A DNA stretch of 64,000 nucleotides from Actinotalea soli. Its GTDB lineage: Bacteria; Actinomycetota; Actinomycetes; Actinomycetales; Cellulomonadaceae. The DNA lies in contig NZ_JAGEMK010000007.1 in the NCBI RefSeq assembly GCF_017565425.1, forward strand, positions 62,001-126,000, given 5' to 3'. Made by a program: the position numbers and the translations under genes. Shown piece by piece: positions 1-8,740 of the stretch (positions are counted from its first letter, which is position 1; every line of letters starts with the position of its first letter). The notes beneath the pieces are model-generated. The model saw only the letters and a list, made by a program, of their open reading frames with translations. It searched no databases and had not been told where the DNA came from.

Positions 1-147
1 TGCCTCCTCGACCAGGTCGCCGAGACCTGCCGCCCGCGCACCGAGAGCCTCGCCGACCCAGCGGATGCGGCCCCCGTCGACCGCGACGACCCCGTCGGGG
101 ATCAGGCCGGTGGGGGTCACCACCCGTCCGCGCAGCAGGGTGGTCAC
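1..147 (-). CDS. nagA: N-terminal part of an amidohydrolase, probably N-acetylglucosamine-6-phosphate deacetylase (partial)
   Basis: Only the first 49 codons lie in the window; the gene runs off the left edge. The peptide opens VTTLLRGRVVTPTG and continues with DGVVAVDGGRIRWVG, the small N-terminal beta-sandwich that precedes the TIM barrel in NagA and related amidohydrolases. The start is a GTG with GAGGAGG seven bases upstream. NagA removes the acetyl group from GlcNAc-6-phosphate in amino-sugar catabolism. The metal-binding HxH and later catalytic residues are outside the window, so another amidohydrolase (dihydroorotase- or imidazolonepropionase-like) cannot be excluded. It is transcribed divergently from the SpeD-like/LuxI-like pair. 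Confidence 0.6.
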   Translation of the reverse strand, partial: MTTLLRGRVVTPTGLIPDGVVAVDGGRIRWVGEALGARAAGLGDLVEEA

Positions 148-247
148 CCAGGGCCTCCTCGAGCTCGTGGGCACGAGGCCGAGAGCGACTCGTGCCCGAT
201 CAGCCTAGTGCGGAGGCCCGCGGCAGGGCATGATCGGTGTGCTGTCG

Positions 248-269
248 GTCACACGGCTGTGACAGCCGT
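248..269. promoter_or_regulatory. Two overlapping perfect dyads, possible operator
   Basis: GTCACA-CGGC-TGTGAC (248-263, 6-bp arms) overlaps ACGGCTG-TGA-CAGCCGT (253-269, 7-bp arms). They lie in the divergent region between the nagA-like gene and the SpeD-like gene. The nested symmetry suggests a protein-binding site for a dimeric regulator. The half-sites resemble CRP/GlxR boxes, but in the inverted orientation. No regulator gene for this locus is visible in the window. Confidence 0.35.
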
Positions 270-310
270 CGGCCGACCGGTGTGGCAACTGGGTGAACGC
301 CCCCCTCAAA

Positions 311-348
311 CAGGGACAGGTCGGACATACTGGCGCGACCTGCCCCTG
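311..348 (+). promoter_or_regulatory. Strong hairpin/dyad upstream of the SpeD-like gene
   Basis: CAGGG-A-CAGGTCG (311-323) pairs with CGACCTG-C-CCCTG (336-348): 12 bp with a single A.C mismatch around a 12-nt centre that contains CATACT (326-331), a -10-like hexamer. It ends 34 nt before the GTG start. It may be an operator covering the core promoter or an RNA stem in the leader. No T-tract follows, so a simple terminator is unlikely. Confidence 0.4.
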
Positions 349-382
349 ACGATCATGGGGCCGAAACCCTCGGAGGACTGCT

Positions 383-724
383 GTGCGAGACCTGGCCCCA
401 GAGATCCATCGTCAGCGCCTCGTCGTGGAGGGACTGTGCCGTGAGCCGATCAGCGCCGCCTCGATCTCCGCCTACCTCTCGCAGCTGTCGAAGTCCATCG
501 ACATGGTCGAGCTCACCGAACCGGTGACCCACCAGTCCCCCCTGTACGGGTGGGCCGGCTGGATCCACTGGGAGACCTCGGGGGCCCACTTCTACGCCTG
601 GGACCAGCCCCGGCTGTTCTTCAGCGTCGACATCTACGCCTGCAAGCCCTTCGTGGCCGAGGCTGCGGTCGAGCTCACCCGTGAGTGGTTCGACGCCACC
701 GAGGTCGTCTACAAGGAGTTCTGA
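383..724 (+). CDS. S-adenosylmethionine decarboxylase-like (SpeD-fold) protein, divergent active site
   Basis: The 113-residue protein matches the length and pattern of prokaryotic SpeD/SpeH, small pyruvoyl enzymes that cleave themselves at a serine and decarboxylate AdoMet for spermidine synthesis. The central stretch WETSGAHFYAW followed by SVDIYAC aligns by eye with B. subtilis ESHLTIHSF...SIDVYTC. Ser66 falls on the processing serine and Cys87 on the catalytic cysteine, while the processing histidine is replaced by Tyr71 (His69 is close by). The start is GTG with GGAGG six bases upstream. The stop overlaps the next start by one base (TGATG), so the two genes are translationally coupled. 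No spermidine synthase gene lies nearby. Seen: fold-level similarity and residue changes. Inferred: it may act on another substrate (SpeD homologues with arginine or ornithine decarboxylase activity are known), may be inactive, or may make decarboxylated AdoMet for the downstream enzyme. Confidence 0.6.
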   Translation: MRDLAPEIHRQRLVVEGLCREPISAASISAYLSQLSKSIDMVELTEPVTHQSPLYGWAGWIHWETSGAHFYAWDQPRLFFSVDIYACKPFVAEAAVELTREWFDATEVVYKEF

Positions 725-1488
725 TGAGCGCCGTCCCGTACTCCATGCACTTCGCCCCCGAGGGCGATCTGCTCGAGTCTGCTCGCGAGTGCGAGGCCGA
801 GGTCTTCCTGCGCTGGTACGGCAACACGCGCGAGCAGCTCGCCGAGGAGTACGGCCCCTACGACGACGCCTCGGCCTTCCTCGCGATCGCGGACCGGGCG
901 GGCGAGGTGGTCGGGGCCGTGCGGCTGCTCGCCCCCGGGGGGCGAGCGGGGCTCAAGACCCTGACCGACGTCGCGGCCCCGCCCTGGTCGGTACCCGGCG
1001 CGAGGGTCGCGGCCGCGGCCGGCCTCGACCTCGGCTCGACCTGGGAGATCGCGACCCTCGGGGTGCGGCGTCAGGACCGGGCCGACGGGCTGCGCCTGTC
1101 CCTGGCGCTGTACCACGGCCTCATCGCGGTGTGCCGGGCCAACGGGATGACCTCGTTCGTGGCCGTGCTCGACGAGCGCGTCCGACGCCTGCTGCACTCG
1201 GTCGGCCTGCTCACGCAGGTGCTGCCGGGGACCTCGACGGCGCCCTACCTGGGCTCCGCGGCGAGCACCCCGGTCTTCGCACGGTGCGTCCCGGTGCTCG
1301 ACAACCAGCGCCAGCAGTTCCCCGACGCCTACCGCCTGGTGACGCTGGGGGTCGGGCTCGACGGCATCACCGTCCCGCCGGCTGAGGCGTTCCGCCTGCA
1401 CGACGGCCTGCGCGCCCCCGACGACCTGTCGAGCACCACGCTGGCCGCCGTCCCCTCCGACCTGGCTCTCCTGACCGGTCGCGCGTAG
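724..1488 (+). CDS. LuxI-like / GNAT-fold acyltransferase
   Basis: The 254-residue protein has the N-terminal layout of acyl-homoserine-lactone synthases: VF at 27-28, Trp31, EEYGPYD at 41-47, a GEVVGAVRLL strand at 60-69 with Arg67, and WEIATLGV at 107-114 matching the WELxRFAV strand of LuxI. The LuxI arginine after that glutamate is Thr111 here, and the acidic ExDxxD set is only partly kept. It therefore looks like a LuxI/FeeM-type N-acyl transferase rather than a proven AHL synthase. The start ATG overlaps the TGA of the SpeD-like gene, fixing the start and implying co-translation. About 60 extra C-terminal residues follow the GNAT core. Likely cytoplasmic; substrate unknown. The natural idea is that it acylates the product of its partner or uses AdoMet itself. 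It converges on a GGDEF-EAL gene 18 bp away. Confidence 0.6.
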   Translation: MSAVPYSMHFAPEGDLLESARECEAEVFLRWYGNTREQLAEEYGPYDDASAFLAIADRAGEVVGAVRLLAPGGRAGLKTLTDVAAPPWSVPGARVAAAAGLDLGSTWEIATLGVRRQDRADGLRLSLALYHGLIAVCRANGMTSFVAVLDERVRRLLHSVGLLTQVLPGTSTAPYLGSAASTPVFARCVPVLDNQRQQFPDAYRLVTLGVGLDGITVPPAEAFRLHDGLRAPDDLSSTTLAAVPSDLALLTGRA

Positions 1489-1506
1489 GCCTGCTGACCG
1501 GACCTG

Positions 1507-3819
1507 CTAGCCCTGCTGACCGAACGCGTCGAGGGAGATCGTCGTCGTCCCCGGGCTGCCGAAGCGCTCGGCCTGACGCCGTCGCACCCACGGCGCGACC
1601 TCCGAGGCCGGCATGGGCCGGGCGACGTGGAAGCCCTGGAGGACGTCGACCCCCATGGGCAGCAGCTCGGCCGCGGCCGCCTGGTCCTCGACGCCCTCGG
1701 CGACCAGGCGCAGCCCGAAGGCGCGGGCCATCTGGGCCGTGGTCTGCACGATCATGCGGCTGCGCTCGTCGGTGGCCACCGGGGTGATGAAGGAGCGGTC
1801 CATCTTGATCTCCTGGACGGGCAGGTCCCGCAGGTAGGACAACGACGAGAACCCGGTCCCGTAGTCGTCGATCGCCACCTGCACCCCGTGGCGCCGTAGC
1901 TCGAGCAGGGCCTCGCGCGCGCGCTCCGGCTCGGCCAGGAACGAGTCCTCGGTGACCTCGACCATGAGTCGGTCGGCGGGGAAGGTGGCGTCGTCGAGGG
2001 CCGAGATGAGCTGGGGCAGGATGCGTCCGCCGACCAGCTCGGGCGGGGCCCAGTTCATCGCGACCCGGAAGGTGAAGCCGGCCTCGGCCCACCGGCGGGT
2101 GTCGGCGAGCACCCGGCGCAGGACCACCTCGGTGACCTCGGCCATCAGGCCCGAGGCACGGGCGTCGGCGAGGAAGGCCACCGGGGAGAGCAGGCCCTCG
2201 GTCGGGTGCCGCCAGCGGACCAGCGCCTCGACGGCGACCACGCCGCCCGTCCGGGCGTCGACCTGCGGCTGGTACCAGACGACGAGCTGACCGGTGGTGA
2301 CGGCCTGACGGAGAGCCTCGCTGCGGGAGAGCCGGTGCTGGGCCAGCCCGTCGTGCGCGGGGTCGAAGAGCAGGGTGCCCGCCCCGGTCTGCTTGGCCTG
2401 GTACATCGCGATGTCGGCCCGGCGCAGGAGCTCGGTCGAGGACTGGTCCTCGGGCTGACGGACGGTGATGCCGACCGAGGCGTCCAGGCTCAGGTCGAGC
2501 CCGCGGACGCGCAAGCGGTCCTTGAGGACGGTGCGCAGGCGCTGGGCCGTCTCGTGCAGGGAGAGGACGTCGTCGCTCGGCACCACGAGGGCGAACTCGT
2601 CCCCGCCGAGCCGGGCCAGGGTGATGCGGTGGTCGAGGTTGGCACGCATCCGGTGCGCGAGGGTCACGAGGACCTCGTCGCCGACCATGTGCCCGAGGCT
2701 GTCGTTGACGTCCTTGAACCCGTCGAGGTCGAGCAGCACGACGCCGATCGACCGCTCCGAACGCAGCCGCGTGTCGACCACGGAGAGCAGGGCGCGTCGG
2801 TTGGGCAGTCCCGTGAGCTCGTCGGTCATCGAGAGCCGCATCGCCTCGGCGGCCCCGCGGGCCTCGCGCAGGGCGATCGTCATCCTGGCCCCGACCCCCA
2901 CGAGGGTGACCAGGGCGGGGATCTTGACCGACCAGCCGACCAGCCCTGGCGGGTCGACCATGAGCATCACGAGGGCCAGGCCGGCCGCGGAGGCGAGCAG
3001 GACGGCGCTGCGGATCCCGTCGTCCTCGGGGGCCACCACGCTCACCCGACGTTCGCAGGCGCCGGCGACGACGAGGGCGAAGCTCGCGCCCCAGAGGGCG
3101 GCGAGGACCAGGCTCGTCGAGTAGGTCCCGTCGTCGTGCCCGAGCAGGAAGGTGCTGTCCGCGACGGCGAGCCCCAGGAACCCGAGGAGGAGCGCGACCG
3201 AGGCGAGCGAGGGCTCCCGGTGCCGGACGAGCACCTGCGCGAGCACGACGCCGAACATCACGACGTTGATCAGCGGGTAGGCGACGGCCAGCAGCAGCGC
3301 GACCCCGCCCGACCCGAAGGTCGTCGTCAGCGGCATCAGCAGCGGGAAGGCGGCGAGGCAGACCGCGGCCCCGCACACGACCAGGGCCTCGAGCCACACG
3401 GCACCGGTCAGCGGAGACCGCCTCGGCCGGTCGACGAGGAGGAAGGCGGCCATCGCGAGGTAGGAGGCGAAGCAGAGGAACTCGCCCGGGGCCGGGAAGG
3501 TGACCGCGGTGACCGTCTGGCCCAGGGAGACGCTCGCCGAGCCGACGGCCCAGACGGCGACCGCGCCGGCCAGGAACAGCAGCGGGACCCGCCGCGCGGG
3601 ACGCAGCGCGGCCACGACGAGCAGGCGGACGACGAGGGTCGTGAAGAACACGCCGAGGGTCACGACCAGGGTGATCCGCACCGGGGTGCTGCCCGAGTCC
3701 CCCGGCACGAGGGCGGCGGTCCCGGCACCCAGGGCCAGGACCAGCCACGGCGCCCAGGCCAGGGCGCGGTCGGCGCGCGCGAGAGCAGGCGACGCGGCGT
3801 CGGCTCGCGCTGCAGCCAT
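1507..3819 (-). CDS. Membrane-anchored GGDEF-EAL c-di-GMP turnover protein
   Basis: The 770-residue protein has about eight hydrophobic segments over residues 20-320 (MASE-like sensor). A GGDEF domain follows (MTDELTGLPNRR near 330, intact GGDEF near 404), then an EAL domain with VVAVEALVRWRHP near 531 and DDYGTGFSSLSYL plus KMDRSFI further on. Both active-site signatures are intact, so it could make or degrade cyclic di-GMP, or one domain could be regulatory. It acts at the membrane. The start ATG has GAGGG eight bases upstream. The gene converges with the LuxI-like gene. A second GGDEF-EAL protein lies at 8734-10800. Confidence 0.9.
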   Translation of the reverse strand: MAAARADAASPALARADRALAWAPWLVLALGAGTAALVPGDSGSTPVRITLVVTLGVFFTTLVVRLLVVAALRPARRVPLLFLAGAVAVWAVGSASVSLGQTVTAVTFPAPGEFLCFASYLAMAAFLLVDRPRRSPLTGAVWLEALVVCGAAVCLAAFPLLMPLTTTFGSGGVALLLAVAYPLINVVMFGVVLAQVLVRHREPSLASVALLLGFLGLAVADSTFLLGHDDGTYSTSLVLAALWGASFALVVAGACERRVSVVAPEDDGIRSAVLLASAAGLALVMLMVDPPGLVGWSVKIPALVTLVGVGARMTIALREARGAAEAMRLSMTDELTGLPNRRALLSVVDTRLRSERSIGVVLLDLDGFKDVNDSLGHMVGDEVLVTLAHRMRANLDHRITLARLGGDEFALVVPSDDVLSLHETAQRLRTVLKDRLRVRGLDLSLDASVGITVRQPEDQSSTELLRRADIAMYQAKQTGAGTLLFDPAHDGLAQHRLSRSEALRQAVTTGQLVVWYQPQVDARTGGVVAVEALVRWRHPTEGLLSPVAFLADARASGLMAEVTEVVLRRVLADTRRWAEAGFTFRVAMNWAPPELVGGRILPQLISALDDATFPADRLMVEVTEDSFLAEPERAREALLELRRHGVQVAIDDYGTGFSSLSYLRDLPVQEIKMDRSFITPVATDERSRMIVQTTAQMARAFGLRLVAEGVEDQAAAAELLPMGVDVLQGFHVARPMPASEVAPWVRRRQAERFGSPGTTTISLDAFGQQG

Positions 3820-4012
3820 GGTGACCCTCGCTCTCTCGACCTACCGCCGCGCGCACCGCGGACGGAGCACGTCCCTGACATGCCCCCCACAGGTCAATCG
3901 GCGCGAATTGTCCGAACTTGAGGCCCGGTGTTCGCCTGTCTCAGGGTGGACCCCTCGGCCGTGATGCGCGCGCCGACCCGCGGGGGCGAGGCAGGGCGCG
4001 CACCGTGCAGCA

Positions 4013-5152
4013 TCACCGGTGCCGTTCCCCTGGGCCGACGTACTCGCTCAGCGGGCGGATCAGGGCGTTGTCGGCGCGCTGCTCGAGGACATGAGCGGTC
4101 CAGCCCATGATGCGGCTCACCGCGAACAGCGGGGTGAACGTCTCGGTCTCGAAGCCCATGAGGTGGTACGCGGGGCCGGCCGGGTAGTCGAGGTTGGGCA
4201 GGATGCCGGTGCGCGCGGTCATCCCCCGCTCGAGGGCCTCGTACCGTTCGAGGAGGTCCTGCCTGCCGGTGTGCTCGACCAGCCGGTCGAGGGCCTCGCG
4301 CATCGTGGGCACCCGGGAGTCGCCGTGCTTGTACACACGGTGCCCGAAGCCCATGATCTTGCGGCGCTCGCCCAGGGCCCGCTCGAGCCACTCCTCGGTG
4401 CCCGCCGCGGACCCGATCTCGGCGAGGGTCTCCATGACGGCCTCGTTGGCGCCCCCGTGCAGCGGGCCCTTGAGGGCACCGATCGCGGCGACCACGGACG
4501 AGTACAGGTCGGACAGGGTCGAGGTGACCACGCGGGCCGTGAAGGTCGAGGCGTTGAACGAGTGCTCGGCGTACAGCACCATCGAGACCTGGAAGGCGTC
4601 GTGCACGACCGGATCGGGCGCCTCGCCGAAGGTCATCCACAGCAGGTTGGCCGCGTGGTCCAGGTCGTCCCGCGGCGGCACCGGGCCCAGCCCCAGCCGC
4701 CGGCGGCGGTCCCGCGCGACGACGGTGGGCAGCTGGGCGAACAGCCGCACCGACCGCGCGAGGTCCGCCTCGGCCGAGGAGTCGCGACCTGCGTCCTCGC
4801 TGCCGATCACGCTGACGGCGGTCCGCAGCACGTCCATGGGATGGGCCGAGCGGGGCAGGGCGTCGACCGTGGCCTCGACCAGAGGCGAGAGGAACCTCTC
4901 GGACCGTTCGAGGTGGGCGAGGCCCTCGAGCTCAGCGGGGTCGGGCAGCTCACCGTGCCAGAGCAGCCACGCGACCTCCTCGACCGCGCAGTCGCGGGCG
5001 AGCTCCTGGACGGGGTAGCCGCGGTAGAGCAGCGAGTTCGACGCGGGGTCCACGTGGGAGACGGCCGTGGTGTCCACGACGACCCCGGCGAGGCCGCGGG
5101 CCACCCGGTGCTCACCCGCGGCGGGCCTCGGCTCGGTCGGTGTGCTGGTCAT
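4013..5152 (-). CDS. prpC: 2-methylcitrate synthase / citrate synthase
   Basis: This 379-residue citrate-synthase-family enzyme condenses propionyl-CoA (or acetyl-CoA) with oxaloacetate. Visible signatures are GPLHGGAN with the first catalytic His, the family motif GFGHRVYKHGDSR, and PNLDYPAG with the catalytic Asp; the C-terminal IRPLSEYVGP is common in the actinobacterial 2-methylcitrate synthases. It is the last gene of the GntR-prpD-prpB-prpC run, starting 55 nt after prpB, which supports the methylcitrate role over the TCA role. The ATG at 5152 has AAGGAG seven bases upstream; the reading frame stays open further upstream, but that extension lacks family similarity. Confidence 0.9.
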   Translation of the reverse strand: MTSTPTEPRPAAGEHRVARGLAGVVVDTTAVSHVDPASNSLLYRGYPVQELARDCAVEEVAWLLWHGELPDPAELEGLAHLERSERFLSPLVEATVDALPRSAHPMDVLRTAVSVIGSEDAGRDSSAEADLARSVRLFAQLPTVVARDRRRRLGLGPVPPRDDLDHAANLLWMTFGEAPDPVVHDAFQVSMVLYAEHSFNASTFTARVVTSTLSDLYSSVVAAIGALKGPLHGGANEAVMETLAEIGSAAGTEEWLERALGERRKIMGFGHRVYKHGDSRVPTMREALDRLVEHTGRQDLLERYEALERGMTARTGILPNLDYPAGPAYHLMGFETETFTPLFAVSRIMGWTAHVLEQRADNALIRPLSEYVGPGERHR

Positions 5153-5207
5153 GTGCGCTCCTTCGCGTCCATGTCGCTGTGCGTCGGTGGGGCAGGTCAG
5201 GGCCGGG

Positions 5208-6110
5208 TCATCCGCCGTACCCGGTCGAGGTGAAGACGGTCGAGTCGAAGCGCTCGTAGCCCGCGTAGTCGAGGAGCTCGTACAACCGCGCGCGGGTCTG
5301 CATCTGCGGGACCAGCGGCTCGAGGGTGCCCCGCTCGGCGAGAAGGTCGAGGGCGTCCTCGGCGGCACCCATCGCGAGGCGGAGCAGCGAGACGGGGTGG
5401 ATGACGACGTCCACGCCGACCTCCGCGAGCCGGGCGTGGGTCACGAGCTCGGTCCGGCCGAACTCGGTCATGTTGGCCAGGAGGGGCACGTCCACCGCGC
5501 GGCGGACCGCCTCGAGCTCGTGCAGGTCGGTCAGCGCCTCGGGGAACACCGCGTCGGCTCCGGCGTCGACCAGGGCACGCAGCCGGTCCAGGGTCGCGTC
5601 GAGACCCTCGACGGCGCGGACGTCGGTCCGGGCCATGATCAGGAGGTCGGGGTCCCGGCGCGCGTCGACCGCGGCCCGGACCCGGCGCAGGGCCGTGGGG
5701 AGGTCGACCACGGCCTTGCCGTCGAGGTGCCCGCACCGCTTGGGGTTGACCTGGTCCTCGACGTGGAGGCCGGCGACGCCGGCGTCCTCGAGCACCTGGA
5801 CGGTGCGGGCCATGCTCATGGGTTCGCCGAAGCCGGTGTCGGCGTCGACCAGGACGGGGAGGTCGGTCACCCGGGCGACCTGCTGGGCACGGTGCGCGAC
5901 CTCGGTGAGGGTGGTCAGCCCGACGTCGGGCAGGCCGAGGTCCGCGGCGACCACCGCCCCCGAGAGATACACCCCGCCCATGCCCTTGTCCTGGATGAGC
6001 CGGGCGGAGAGCGGGTTGAAGGCCCCCGGCATGACGAGCAGCTCGTCGGCGGCGAGGCGGGCGCGCAGGTCGGCCCGCTTGGCCGCGGGGGTCCTGGTCG
6101 AGTGGAGCAT
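5208..6110 (-). CDS. prpB: 2-methylisocitrate lyase
   Basis: The 300-residue protein belongs to the isocitrate lyase/PEP mutase superfamily. It cleaves 2-methylisocitrate to pyruvate and succinate, the final step of propionate oxidation. Key features are the KRCGH active-site loop with the catalytic cysteine, VDADTGFG with the Mg-binding aspartates, GLHVEDQ, and MARTDVRAVEG. Its ATG at 6110 overlaps the TGA of prpD by one base, so translation is coupled. The open frame upstream of this ATG is an antisense/overlap artefact of the prpD region and is excluded. Confidence 0.95.
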   Translation of the reverse strand: MLHSTRTPAAKRADLRARLAADELLVMPGAFNPLSARLIQDKGMGGVYLSGAVVAADLGLPDVGLTTLTEVAHRAQQVARVTDLPVLVDADTGFGEPMSMARTVQVLEDAGVAGLHVEDQVNPKRCGHLDGKAVVDLPTALRRVRAAVDARRDPDLLIMARTDVRAVEGLDATLDRLRALVDAGADAVFPEALTDLHELEAVRRAVDVPLLANMTEFGRTELVTHARLAEVGVDVVIHPVSLLRLAMGAAEDALDLLAERGTLEPLVPQMQTRARLYELLDYAGYERFDSTVFTSTGYGG

Positions 6111-7651
6111 CAGAAGATCCCTCGGGTCGGGGCCACCGCGGCGAGGAGGTCGGGCGGGGCGGTGACGGTGAGCGCGCCGAGCTCCTCGGGGCCCAGCCCG
6201 GGCAGGCGCTGGGCGACCTCGAGGAAACGCTCGGCCTCGGCCTCCTCGAGGACCCCGGCGGCCAGCGTGCGGAACTTCCCGAGGTACTGCTCCCGCGCGA
6301 ACGGCCGCGCACCGAGCGGGTGCGCGTCGGCCACGGCGATCTCCTCGACGAGGCGACGGCCGTCGGTGAAGGTCACCTCGACCCGGCCGCCGAAGGCCTT
6401 CTCGGCCGGGTCGGTCGCGTGGTAGCGGCGGGTCCAGGCGGGGTCCTCGGTCGTGGTGACCTTCTGCCACAGCGCGACCGTGTCGGGCCGGGACGCGCGC
6501 TCGGGGGCGTAGGAGTCCACGTGGTGCCACGCACCGTCCTGGAGGGCCACCGCCACGATGTACGGGATCGAGTGGTCGAGGGTCTCGCGGGACGCGTGCG
6601 GGTCGTACTTCTGCGGGTCGTTCGCCCCCGAGCCGATGACGTGGTGGGTGTGGTGGCTCGTGCGGATCACGATCTGCTCGACCCGCTCGGGGTCGGCCAC
6701 CTCGGGGTGCTCGCGGTGCAGCCGCCGGGCGAGGTCGATGAGGGCCTGGGACTGGTACTCGGCCGAGTGCTCCTTGGTGTAGGTGTCGAGGATCGCCCGC
6801 TTGGGCTCTCCCGGTGCCGGCAGGGGGACCTCGTAGCGCGACCCGGGCCCGTCGAGCAGCCACGCCAGGACCCCGTCCTCCCCCTCGTAGATCGGTGTCG
6901 GCGAGGTCTGGCCGCGCATGGCGCGGTCGACCGCCTCGATCGCGACCTTGGCGGCGAAGGCCGGGGCGTAGGCCTTCCAGGTCGAGATCTCCCCCTTGCG
7001 GGACTGCCGCGTCGCGGTCGTCGTGTGCAGGGCCTGACCCACCGCGTGGAAGGTGGTCACGGGATCGAGGTCCAGGAGGGTGCCCAGGGCCGCAGCCACC
7101 GCGGGCCCGAGGTGGGCGACGTGGTCGATCTTGTGCCGGTGCAGGCTGATCGCCCGCACCAGGTCCACCTGGACCTCGTAGCCCGTGGCCACCGCCCGCA
7201 CGAGCTCGGTCCCGCCGACCCGCCGCCCGCCGGGCAGCGGCCGCCCGAGCAGGTGCTGGGCCACCGCGAGCACGGGGGCGATCGTGTCCCCCGGGTGGGA
7301 GTAGTCCGCGGCGAGGAAGGTGTCGTGGAAGTCGAGCTCGCGCACGGCCGTGCCGTTGGCCCAGGCCGCCCACTCGGGGCTCACCCGACGCACACCCTCC
7401 AGCCCGACGACGGTCGCCCCCGGCGCGCTCGGGTGCGCGAGGGCCTGGTCACGGGCTGCCGCGACGGGAGCCCGCGTCAGGGCGGCCGTGGCCACGGCCA
7501 TGTTGTCGATCAGCCGGTTGACGACCATCTCTTCCACGGCCGGCTCGACCGCGACCGGGTCGGCCGCGACCTCGGCGATCCGCCAGGCGAGCTGCTGCTC
7601 GCGCGGCAGGCCGTCGGCGCTGGGGTGCACACGCAGGTGGTGGGTGATCAC
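6110..7651 (-). CDS. prpD: 2-methylcitrate dehydratase (MmgE/PrpD family)
   Basis: The 513-residue protein has the length and sequence character of PrpD, which dehydrates 2-methylcitrate to 2-methyl-cis-aconitate. Recognisable stretches include [20 protein letters not shown], the conserved substrate-pocket motif near residue 95, then SHPGD, and [18 protein letters not shown] in the middle. It sits between the GntR regulator (ATGA overlap upstream) and prpB (TGATG overlap downstream), so regulator and enzymes form one transcription unit. Hydration to methylisocitrate would need an aconitase encoded elsewhere. Confidence 0.93.
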
Positions 7652-8319
7652 GAGGCTCCTTCGAGGTGGCTGGCGTCGAGAGCGTGGGCACGCAGGGTCA
7701 CGAGGGCCGTGTCGAGGCTCGCGCGGAGGTGGACCGCCGTCGCCTGCGCAGCGAGGGTCTCGTCGCCGTCGGCGATGGCGGTGGCGATCAGACGGTGCTC
7801 GTCCGCGGCGCGCACCAGCCGGGCGGCGTCGCCGTGGGCCAGACGTCTGATCCGCGCCACGTGGGGGCGCAGCCCGGCGAGGGCTCGACGCAGGTGCGGA
7901 CTGCCCATCGCCTCGTCGACCGCCACGTCGAGCTCGGCGACCACCGCGTAGTAGGCGGTGCGGGCGGGGTCGTGGTCGACCAGCAGGGCCGGTGCGGCGG
8001 CGAAGCGCTCCGCGAGCGCGGTGAAGACCTCGGACGAGCCGCGCCGGGCCGCGAGCCGTGCGGCCTGGGTCTCGAGGGCCTCACGGAGCTCGACCAGGTG
8101 CCGGACGTCGGCCGCGTCGAGGCCCGAGACGACGAGGGTGCGCCCCCGCGGCATGGCGAGCCCGTCGGCGACGAGCCGCGCGAGGGCCTCGCGCAGGGGG
8201 GTCCGCGAGACGCCGTGCCGTGCGGCCTGCTCGACCTCGCTGAGCTCTGTCCCCGGTGCAAGCTCCCAGGCGACGATCTCGGCCCGCAGGGCCTGGTAGA
8301 CGCGGTCACTGGCACGCAT
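7648..8319 (-). CDS. GntR-family (FadR/FCD subgroup) regulator of the prp operon
   Basis: This 223-residue transcription factor has an N-terminal winged helix ([20 protein letters not shown], then [20 protein letters not shown]) and an all-helical FCD ligand domain ([13 protein letters not shown], with later histidines that may bind metal). It is the first gene of the operon and overlaps prpD by ATGA. The ATG at 8319 is chosen because similarity begins there; the frame stays open for 23 codons upstream, across an operator. Two CTGYATACAG sites lie upstream, so autoregulation is likely. The natural effector would be a methylcitrate-cycle intermediate; this is inference. Confidence 0.88.
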
Positions 8320-8346
8320 GGCGCGACGATACGCCCCGTCAGGCGT

Positions 8347-8409
8347 TCTGTATACAGAGCATCGCTCAACCCCCGCTTCAGGCGGCACCTGAAGGCTTCC
8401 TGCATACAG
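8347..8409 (-). promoter_or_regulatory. Paired GntR operators upstream of the prp operon
   Basis: A perfect 12-bp palindrome TCTGTATACAGA (8347-8358) and a near-copy CTGCATACAG (8400-8409) lie 52 bp apart, about five helical turns. Between them is a further dyad, CTTCAGG-CGGCA-CCTGAAG (8376-8394). The palindrome half-site GTATAC is typical of FadR-subfamily GntR proteins. The remainder of the intergenic stretch, 8410-8632, shows no gene on either strand that I can support and no recognisable riboswitch. Confidence 0.65.
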
Positions 8410-8632
8410 AGGCCCGAGCGAGTCGGAAATCTCGTCCTCAGCTATGACTCAGAACGGCATGTCCATGGACTGCGGTCACACCGATACGGGAAGATCAGTC
8501 AAGGCCGCGCCCCTGCCGGCCGATGACACTCATGAACGGCGAGCGCACTCGTCACCACCCACCCGGGGTGGCCGTCGGGGGGCAGGGGCGGCCACGGCCG
8601 CGAGGTGCCGATCACCTGACGAGGAGCTCGAC

Positions 8633-8740
8633 ATGGACAAGTGGCGCATCCTGCAGAACAGCACCGTCGTGCGCGTGAGCGCGAGCGCGGCCACCCTGGT
8701 GGCCGCCGCGGCGCTCGTCGGCGCAGGGCACAAGTGGTAG
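8633..8740 (+). CDS. 35-residue single-pass membrane peptide
   Basis: ATG at 8633 is preceded by GAGGAG seven bases upstream. The peptide begins MDKWRILQNSTVVRV and continues with an Ala/Val-rich hydrophobic stretch (about residues 16-32), ending GHKW. Its stop TAG lies inside the first codons of the following GGDEF-EAL gene, which suggests translational coupling. I recognise no family. It could be a small membrane regulator of the downstream protein or a leader peptide controlling its translation. The good SD and tight overlap argue against chance. Confidence 0.5.
   Translation: MDKWRILQNSTVVRVSASAATLVAAAALVGAGHKW

Follow-up and report, generated by a model that had tools for sequence, protein, structure and literature searches.

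A SpeD-like protein, a probable LuxI/FeeM-type acyltransferase and a GGDEF-EAL protein as a candidate synthase/sensor module in Actinotalea soli

What could be made by a protein resembling S-adenosylmethionine (AdoMet) decarboxylases whose gene overlaps that of a LuxI-like acyltransferase, and which protein could respond to the product? This question is raised by a locus at the beginning of a 64,000-nucleotide stretch of the genome of Actinotalea soli, a member of the Cellulomonadaceae (contig NZ_JAGEMK010000007.1, positions 62,001 to 126,000 of the forward strand), referred to below as the window. The first gene (383..724, plus strand) encodes a SpeD-fold protein of 113 amino acids, similar to class 1b AdoMet decarboxylases; it starts with GTG and is preceded by a Shine-Dalgarno-like GGAGG, read from the sequence (372..376, plus strand). 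Its stop codon overlaps, in a TGATG junction (722..726, plus strand), the ATG start of the second gene of the operon (724..1488, plus strand), coding for an N-acyltransferase-like protein of 254 amino acids with a probable LuxI/FeeM fold. A membrane GGDEF-EAL protein of 770 amino acids, the candidate sensor or effector, is encoded convergently (1507..3819, minus strand), with 18 bp between the two stop codons. The first-pass annotation of the window had described the same two proteins, their junction and the protein converging 18 bp away, and all these coordinates and lengths were confirmed. Taken together, the three genes suggest an undescribed route to make and answer a small molecule.

Conservation of the pair and of its third gene

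In the window's order, matches to the acyltransferase were obtained in 14 of 59 related genomes. One of them (G049), weak and partial, with two stops and no SpeD, was left out, leaving 13 genomes including that of the window; L014 and L015, repeats of G005, a genus-mate, were not counted. In all 13 the SpeD gene is located directly upstream of the acyltransferase gene and the TGATG junction is kept, so that the adjacency and tight coupling read from the window hold in its relatives; conservation of both the pair and the junction rules out a chance pairing. In a second class, that of genome G338 and perhaps the Acidimicrobiia, SpeD matches were found in 10 of 257 genomes. With G939 (33% identity, another clade) left out, the remaining nine belong to the module SpeD clade, and all nine loci have the acyltransferase gene next to SpeD, in one case cut by the contig end. 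The gap from the SpeD stop to the acyltransferase start ranges there from -1 to +53, and TGATG is present in three of the nine.

The SpeD/acyltransferase unit is rare and patchy. It is present in 10 of the 19 genomes of the genus. Among 396 genomes sampled from the order SpeD was found in five, all of them previously identified loci, and among 396 sampled from the phylum likewise in five, of which two remote ones (G329 and G437) were left out and only G000, G338 and G241 fall in the module clade. The phylum-wide acyltransferase search returned 2 of 396 genomes, the window's own and G338, and may miss relatives since only six candidates per genome were scored. Two genomes of another family are nested within the acyltransferase clade of the genus, which hints at transfer, the deciding forks having moderate support (88/71 and 88/83). 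In G241 (L036, 6693-10938) the SpeD gene lies between an amidohydrolase gene (PF04909) and a divergent GGDEF-EAL gene.

The third gene that recurs in these neighbourhoods encodes the GGDEF-EAL protein. At the 22 loci seeded by SpeD and the acyltransferase (13 of the window's order and 9 of the second class), it is adjacent and convergent in 19, including G955, where only the end of the GGDEF-EAL gene is on the contig; in G877 the contig is cut within the acyltransferase gene, and the GGDEF-EAL position is off the contig. The earlier statement that no receptor gene is adjacent has therefore to be revised, this neighbour being the best receptor or effector candidate. In the neighbourhoods of these 22 loci and of G241, 23 in all, a simple caller gave 276 open reading frames (ORFs), 21 of them GGDEF/EAL-like, namely 20 module genes and one other. 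In the first 15 neighbourhoods, where most small SpeD genes escaped this caller, 15 GGDEF-EAL and 13 acyltransferase genes were called, and every other family had at most four members.

The sensor was also used as a starting point. Within the genus the sensor half was found in 11 of 19 genomes, comprising the ten that bear the pair and G004, whose 3,790-bp contig ends inside the GGDEF-EAL gene. A sensor profile of the second class matched 43 of 253 genomes and one of the window's order 13 of 173, the best matches being known modules (five and four, respectively). Nineteen further sensor loci (11 + 8) were examined, covering 11 of 49 non-module places and the loci of 9 of the 12 non-module rows. 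Eight of them, mostly the higher-scoring ones, have a convergent acyltransferase gene and no SpeD (G853, G984, G903, G461, G475 twice, G513, and G474). Because the sensor was the query at these eight loci, their GGDEF-EAL genes were expected from the outset, and what was observed is the neighbouring acyltransferase gene. In total, a convergent GGDEF-EAL gene accompanies the acyltransferase gene at 27 of 29 loci, eight of the 27 having been found through the sensor, and the thirtieth locus is that of G877. Stop-to-stop distances over the 27 loci range from -106 to +65 bp. The gene ends overlap in 10 of the 27, and antisense effects between the transcripts are possible.

The core of the module is thus the acyltransferase together with the GGDEF-EAL protein. 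SpeD is present in most known loci, has been lost or gained several times, and is a dispensable member, because eight loci keep the other two genes without it. On the acyltransferase tree the presence of SpeD changes four times, at least two of these changes being forced by well-supported branches, and residues 153 and 176 partly distinguish the acyltransferases of loci with SpeD from those of loci without it. The evolutionary distances of the acyltransferase and the GGDEF-EAL protein correlate (r 0.92 over 27 loci, 0.91 over 13 and 0.81 over 9), with shared descent ignored in these values.

Predicted folds and conserved residues

The initial reading of the first protein as AdoMet decarboxylase-like is borne out at the level of the fold. 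The protein matches PF02675 (AdoMet_dc) at 31.7 bits, with a cut-off of 25 bits, and this family is matched by all 28 SpeD-like members. Its AlphaFold2 model, built from an alignment of homologues (25 rows), has a predicted local distance difference test score (pLDDT) of 96.6, and the best Foldseek match is SpeD of Thermotoga maritima (1tmi; E 2e-8, TM-scores 0.81/0.79). In a profile alignment to T. maritima SpeD (1tlu), S66 corresponds to the processing Ser63 and C87 to the catalytic Cys83, while Tyr71 takes the place of His68. No variation occurs at S66, G67, Y71, W73, and C87 across 28 aligned rows, including plasmid and other bacterial members, and a His three residues past the Ser is kept in the 23 members of the module clade. 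His68 of T. maritima SpeD is reported to be essential for processing, and the fold has been re-used in homologues that turned into ornithine or arginine decarboxylases, SpeDC and SpeDA (PMC10407285). These enzymes offer a precedent for a SpeD fold with new substrates; the examples in that text cluster with polyamine genes, whereas the SpeD-like protein studied here has Tyr at the His68 position and an acyltransferase partner.

For the second protein, the scores against curated models are low: 21.7 bits against PF00765 (Autoind_synth, cut-off 24), 26.8 bits against the TraI acyl-homoserine lactone (AHL) synthase model (cut-off 292), and 37.9 bits against TIGR03694, the exosortase-associated acyltransferase model (cut-off 112), which is the best NCBIfam match and matches 18 of 21 members. 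PF21926 (FeeM) matches only one of the 21 (E 0.0056). The AlphaFold2 model (alignment of homologues, 21 rows) has a pLDDT of 88.7. In Foldseek searches the best E-value was that of the AHL synthase BjaI (7e-8), that of LasI was 4e-6, and the highest TM-scores among the 50 matches listed belonged to FeeM (2g0b_A; 0.58 query, 0.75 target). The LuxI-like call of the first-pass annotation is supported in the form of a likely LuxI/FeeM-type acyltransferase fold. Judged from this model, the protein likely belongs to the LuxI/FeeM branch; the assignment is not exclusive, because ordinary GNATs follow closely, at E-values of about 1e-6 to 1e-5, and a grouping with these GNATs, which would speak against the LuxI-like call, keeps some probability.

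Across 29 acyltransferases, E24, F52, R67, K78, W88, T111, D150, S178, and P200 are invariant. In an alignment to LasI, F28 and R67 fall on a Phe and an Arg; opposite E24, N34, and G44, LasI carries Arg, Trp, and Asp, respectively. Among the positions which we take to be invariant in LuxI proteins (R24, F28, W34, D45, D48, R68, E97, and R100 in EsaI numbering), those of F28 and R68 are kept, R24 is replaced by Glu and W34 mostly by Asn (also by Glu or Asp); E97 appears as Asp or Glu and R100 as Thr (T111), these two being placed by motif position only, without alignment. Likeness to the LuxI-family AHL synthases BjaI, LasI, and EsaI thus consists of the best Foldseek E-value and the kept Phe and Arg, and the differences are the replacements at residues 24, 34, and 44, the Thr instead of the expected Arg, and the scores below the cut-offs. 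A canonical AHL synthase was rejected, since the LuxI invariants are mostly not kept and the curated cut-offs are not reached. FeeM-type N-acyl amino acid synthases and exosortase-associated acyltransferases share with the protein the highest listed TM-scores and an acidic residue in the W-[DE]-[IV] motif; a difference is that the Pfam FeeM model matches just one member out of 21.

The GGDEF-EAL protein comprises nine transmembrane-like segments identified by hydropathy (residues 20-311), a GGDEF domain (331-480) and an EAL domain (501-735). Neither a PAS domain nor any other Pfam match was found in its first ~310 residues. The GGDEF motif is intact in 27 of 28 such proteins (SGDEF in one) and the EAL motif also in 27 of 28 (EGL in one), and further EAL-domain motifs are largely kept in the 28; therefore, both activities may be present.

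A proposed synthase paired with a cyclic di-GMP enzyme, and competing explanations

RpfR is a GGDEF-EAL protein, and RpfF is a diffusible signal factor (DSF) synthase of another fold. In Burkholderia and its relatives, the RpfF/RpfR system of Burkholderia DSF (BDSF) ties a signal synthase to a receptor that affects cyclic di-GMP (c-di-GMP; PMC6361424). At the locus described here, a synthase gene is likewise found next to a GGDEF-EAL gene. Unlike RpfR with its PAS sensing, the GGDEF-EAL protein has a region of about nine transmembrane segments, and the LuxI/FeeM/GNAT-fold enzyme, the SpeD-like partner and the convergent gene order also set the locus apart. By this analogy, the simplest account using all the parts would be an RpfF/RpfR-like combination of a synthase with a dedicated c-di-GMP enzyme, built from other folds.

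We consider it an even chance that the locus is a synthase/c-di-GMP-sensor module, serving both the synthesis of a signal and the response to it. The SpeD-like protein would make or modify an amine, probably as a pyruvoyl decarboxylase that still processes itself and acts on a new substrate, and the coupled LuxI/FeeM-fold enzyme would acylate this amine from acyl-acyl carrier protein (acyl-ACP) or acyl-coenzyme A (acyl-CoA). The resulting N-acyl amine, or a related amphiphile, would be sensed by the membrane domain of about nine helices in the GGDEF-EAL protein, and this protein would then alter c-di-GMP and, through it, the motile or sessile state. Where SpeD is missing, the module would acylate an amine that the cell already contains. 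Both the signalling nature of the product, as opposed to a lipid, and the decarboxylase activity of the SpeD-like protein are inferred. Signalling of the LuxI type has been described chiefly in Proteobacteria, where LuxR proteins serve as receptors. That the locus represents a new actinobacterial form of cell-cell signalling, in which the product of a SpeD-derived pyruvoyl enzyme, an amine or decarboxylated AdoMet, would be acylated by the LuxI/FeeM enzyme and read directly by the nine-segment GGDEF-EAL sensor with its flagellar-type promoter, thus linking cell density to c-di-GMP without LuxR, is proposed tentatively.

Several observations weigh against a dedicated synthase/sensor module. The GGDEF-EAL gene of G882 is divergent from SpeD, the ~690 bp of contig that remain in G888 contain no GGDEF-EAL gene in convergent orientation, and G241 has SpeD and GGDEF-EAL without the acyltransferase. 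Eleven of the 19 further sensor loci lack the acyltransferase as well as SpeD, and hence sensors of this superfamily also exist outside the module. Between the two classes the sensors show no more than remote similarity (hhalign probability 72, 19% identity) and are probably, though not securely, related, and the distance correlations between the acyltransferase and the GGDEF-EAL protein do not take shared descent into account. The SpeD-like protein might not form pyruvoyl, because Tyr replaces the His needed by the T. maritima enzyme in processing or catalysis. No flagellin was found in 4 of 19 module-bearing genomes (G017, G338, G900, and G947, the last two being 85 and 70% complete). The product, activity and ligand of the module are all predictions.

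Instead of a signal, the pair could make an N-acyl amine lipid or surfactant acting at the cell surface, neither diffusible nor bound by the sensor, with the GGDEF-EAL protein governing either the time of its synthesis or the partners it acts with; we regard this as rather doubtful. A FeeM-like synthase joined to a c-di-GMP-binding PilZ domain has been described from metagenomic clones, with c-di-GMP proposed as a regulator of the synthesis (PMC4897644), and the exosortase-associated family, the best NCBIfam match of the window protein and a match of 18 of the 21 acyltransferases, points in the same direction. The SpeD/acyltransferase pair gave no match to a PilZ domain, however, and the GGDEF-EAL protein is an enzyme with its own unassigned membrane region that, within the genus, is found together with the pair.

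That the SpeD-like protein lacks catalytic activity and serves the acyltransferase as a partner, for instance as a scaffold or as a subunit binding AdoMet, instead of acting as a decarboxylase, is unlikely. Although Tyr occupies the His68 position in all 28 aligned members, the invariance of S66, G67, W73, and C87 in the same 28 rows, including the processing Ser and the catalytic Cys, argues for chemistry by this protein; and while the lower mean distance of SpeD (0.27 against 0.66 for the acyltransferase over 13 loci) and the translational coupling would fit an obligate subunit, eight acyltransferases do without SpeD. An ordinary polyamine AdoMet decarboxylase gene with an unrelated GNAT neighbour would agree with the PF02675 score above the cut-off, with the fold of T. 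maritima SpeD and with the good matches of ordinary GNATs to the acyltransferase model. This is highly improbable in view of the TGATG junction kept in 13 of 13 loci and of a subfamily with Tyr for His, and an ordinary polyamine gene was rejected as the principal explanation on account of the Tyr at the His68 position and the constant acyltransferase partner. A PF02675 search of the window's own genome gave no match, though it also missed the SpeD gene of the window, and is therefore weak evidence against another speD.

No described equivalent of the SpeD/LuxI-FeeM-type/GGDEF-EAL combination was found in the open-licence literature, a scope outside which most subscription papers lie; within it, the earlier remark that no pathway with this pair is described still stands. 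If the synthase/sensor interpretation is true, a LuxI/FeeM-fold enzyme genetically linked, across two classes of actinobacteria, with a membrane-bound c-di-GMP enzyme would constitute a direct route from signal to second messenger, the SpeD fold would acquire a new role, and a sensor region without a Pfam family would obtain a function.

Predicted promoters, distant SpeD relatives and neighbouring genes

A sigma-28 (flagellar)-like promoter, TCAAG-N14-GCCGATTG, is located upstream of the GGDEF-EAL gene of the window (3895..3921, minus strand). An element consisting of TCAAG, 14-15 bases and a GCCGAT-like sequence occurs upstream of all 13 window-order GGDEF-EAL genes, where it starts 105-183 bp upstream of the conserved region. 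Each of the 13 best sites scores higher than at least 97% of 60 sequences resampled with a Markov model; the consensus was first noticed in the window itself. In the same test none of 23 SpeD upstreams has a sigma-28-like site at 5%, and of two second-class GGDEF-EAL upstreams that of G241 passes (p 0.02) and that of G338 does not (p 0.15). A strict sigma-28-like scan missed most flagellar promoters. The pattern TCANN-N14-[GT][CT]CGAT was read by eye in 8 of 15 upstreams, belonging to flagellin and flgN-like genes of G000, G001, G008, and G016; the other seven were internal positions of sigma-factor-like genes, likely intra-operon genes, or G040, in which the flagellin start was not located. 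As this pattern was read after the strict scan, the comparison with flagellar promoters is post hoc. The predicted sites suggest sigma-28 control of the GGDEF-EAL gene. A perfect TCAAG-N15-GCCGATGA site, similar to the GGDEF-EAL promoter, is also present at 8499-8526 (plus strand) of the window, before a 35-codon ORF (8633-8740, plus strand). A scan of positions 1-4000 gave a single terminator-like site, located within the SpeD-like gene, and no promoter of the sigma-70 type.

Flagellin was found in 23 of the 28 genomes searched. Besides the four module-bearing genomes named above, it is missing from one of nine genomes without the full module (G004). Flagellin thus does not track the module, and a strict link to motility was rejected, because four of the five flagellin-less genomes carry it.

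Three remote SpeD relatives are encoded on plasmids of Nostoc, Halioglobus and Acaryochloris. No acyltransferase relative was found on plasmids, and in the three SpeD-bearing stretches the acyltransferase and GGDEF-EAL models of the module gave no match at E 1. On the Acaryochloris plasmid (L040, 3908-5357) the SpeD relative directly follows an annotated GNAT gene, which reads as two GNAT-like halves and is not matched by the acyltransferase model. A viral SpeD-like clade from uncultivated viruses (L089-L114 and L135) has 37-44% identity to the window protein and the motif ESGxHxYxW, with Tyr replacing His68 of T. maritima; one remote SpeD-like row, L115, lacks the Tyr. The start LAPxIxRQR is common to the module SpeDs, the three plasmid relatives and 26 viral-contig proteins, and a single branch (support 85/81) splits the module SpeDs from the viral ones. 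No acyltransferase was found on the viral contigs, and neither this gene nor a GGDEF-EAL gene was a neighbour of SpeD in the 29 of 52 viral loci scanned. The next gene is saccharopine-dehydrogenase-type-like in four of nine viral loci inspected, two of the four being Pfam-checked. At the limits applied, no SpeD-like match came from sequenced phage records. SpeDs of demonstrated activity are known from phages (PMC9992855). From this survey of plasmids, viruses and phages, we know of no characterized member of the SpeD subfamily, though no direct comparison with the active phage SpeDs was made.

Beyond the GGDEF-EAL gene and its promoter, consecutive genes for a citrate synthase, a phosphoenolpyruvate (PEP)-mutase/isocitrate-lyase-type protein, a PrpD-type protein and a GntR-FCD regulator occupy positions 4013-8388 (minus strand) of the window and presumably form a 2-methylcitrate (propionate) operon.
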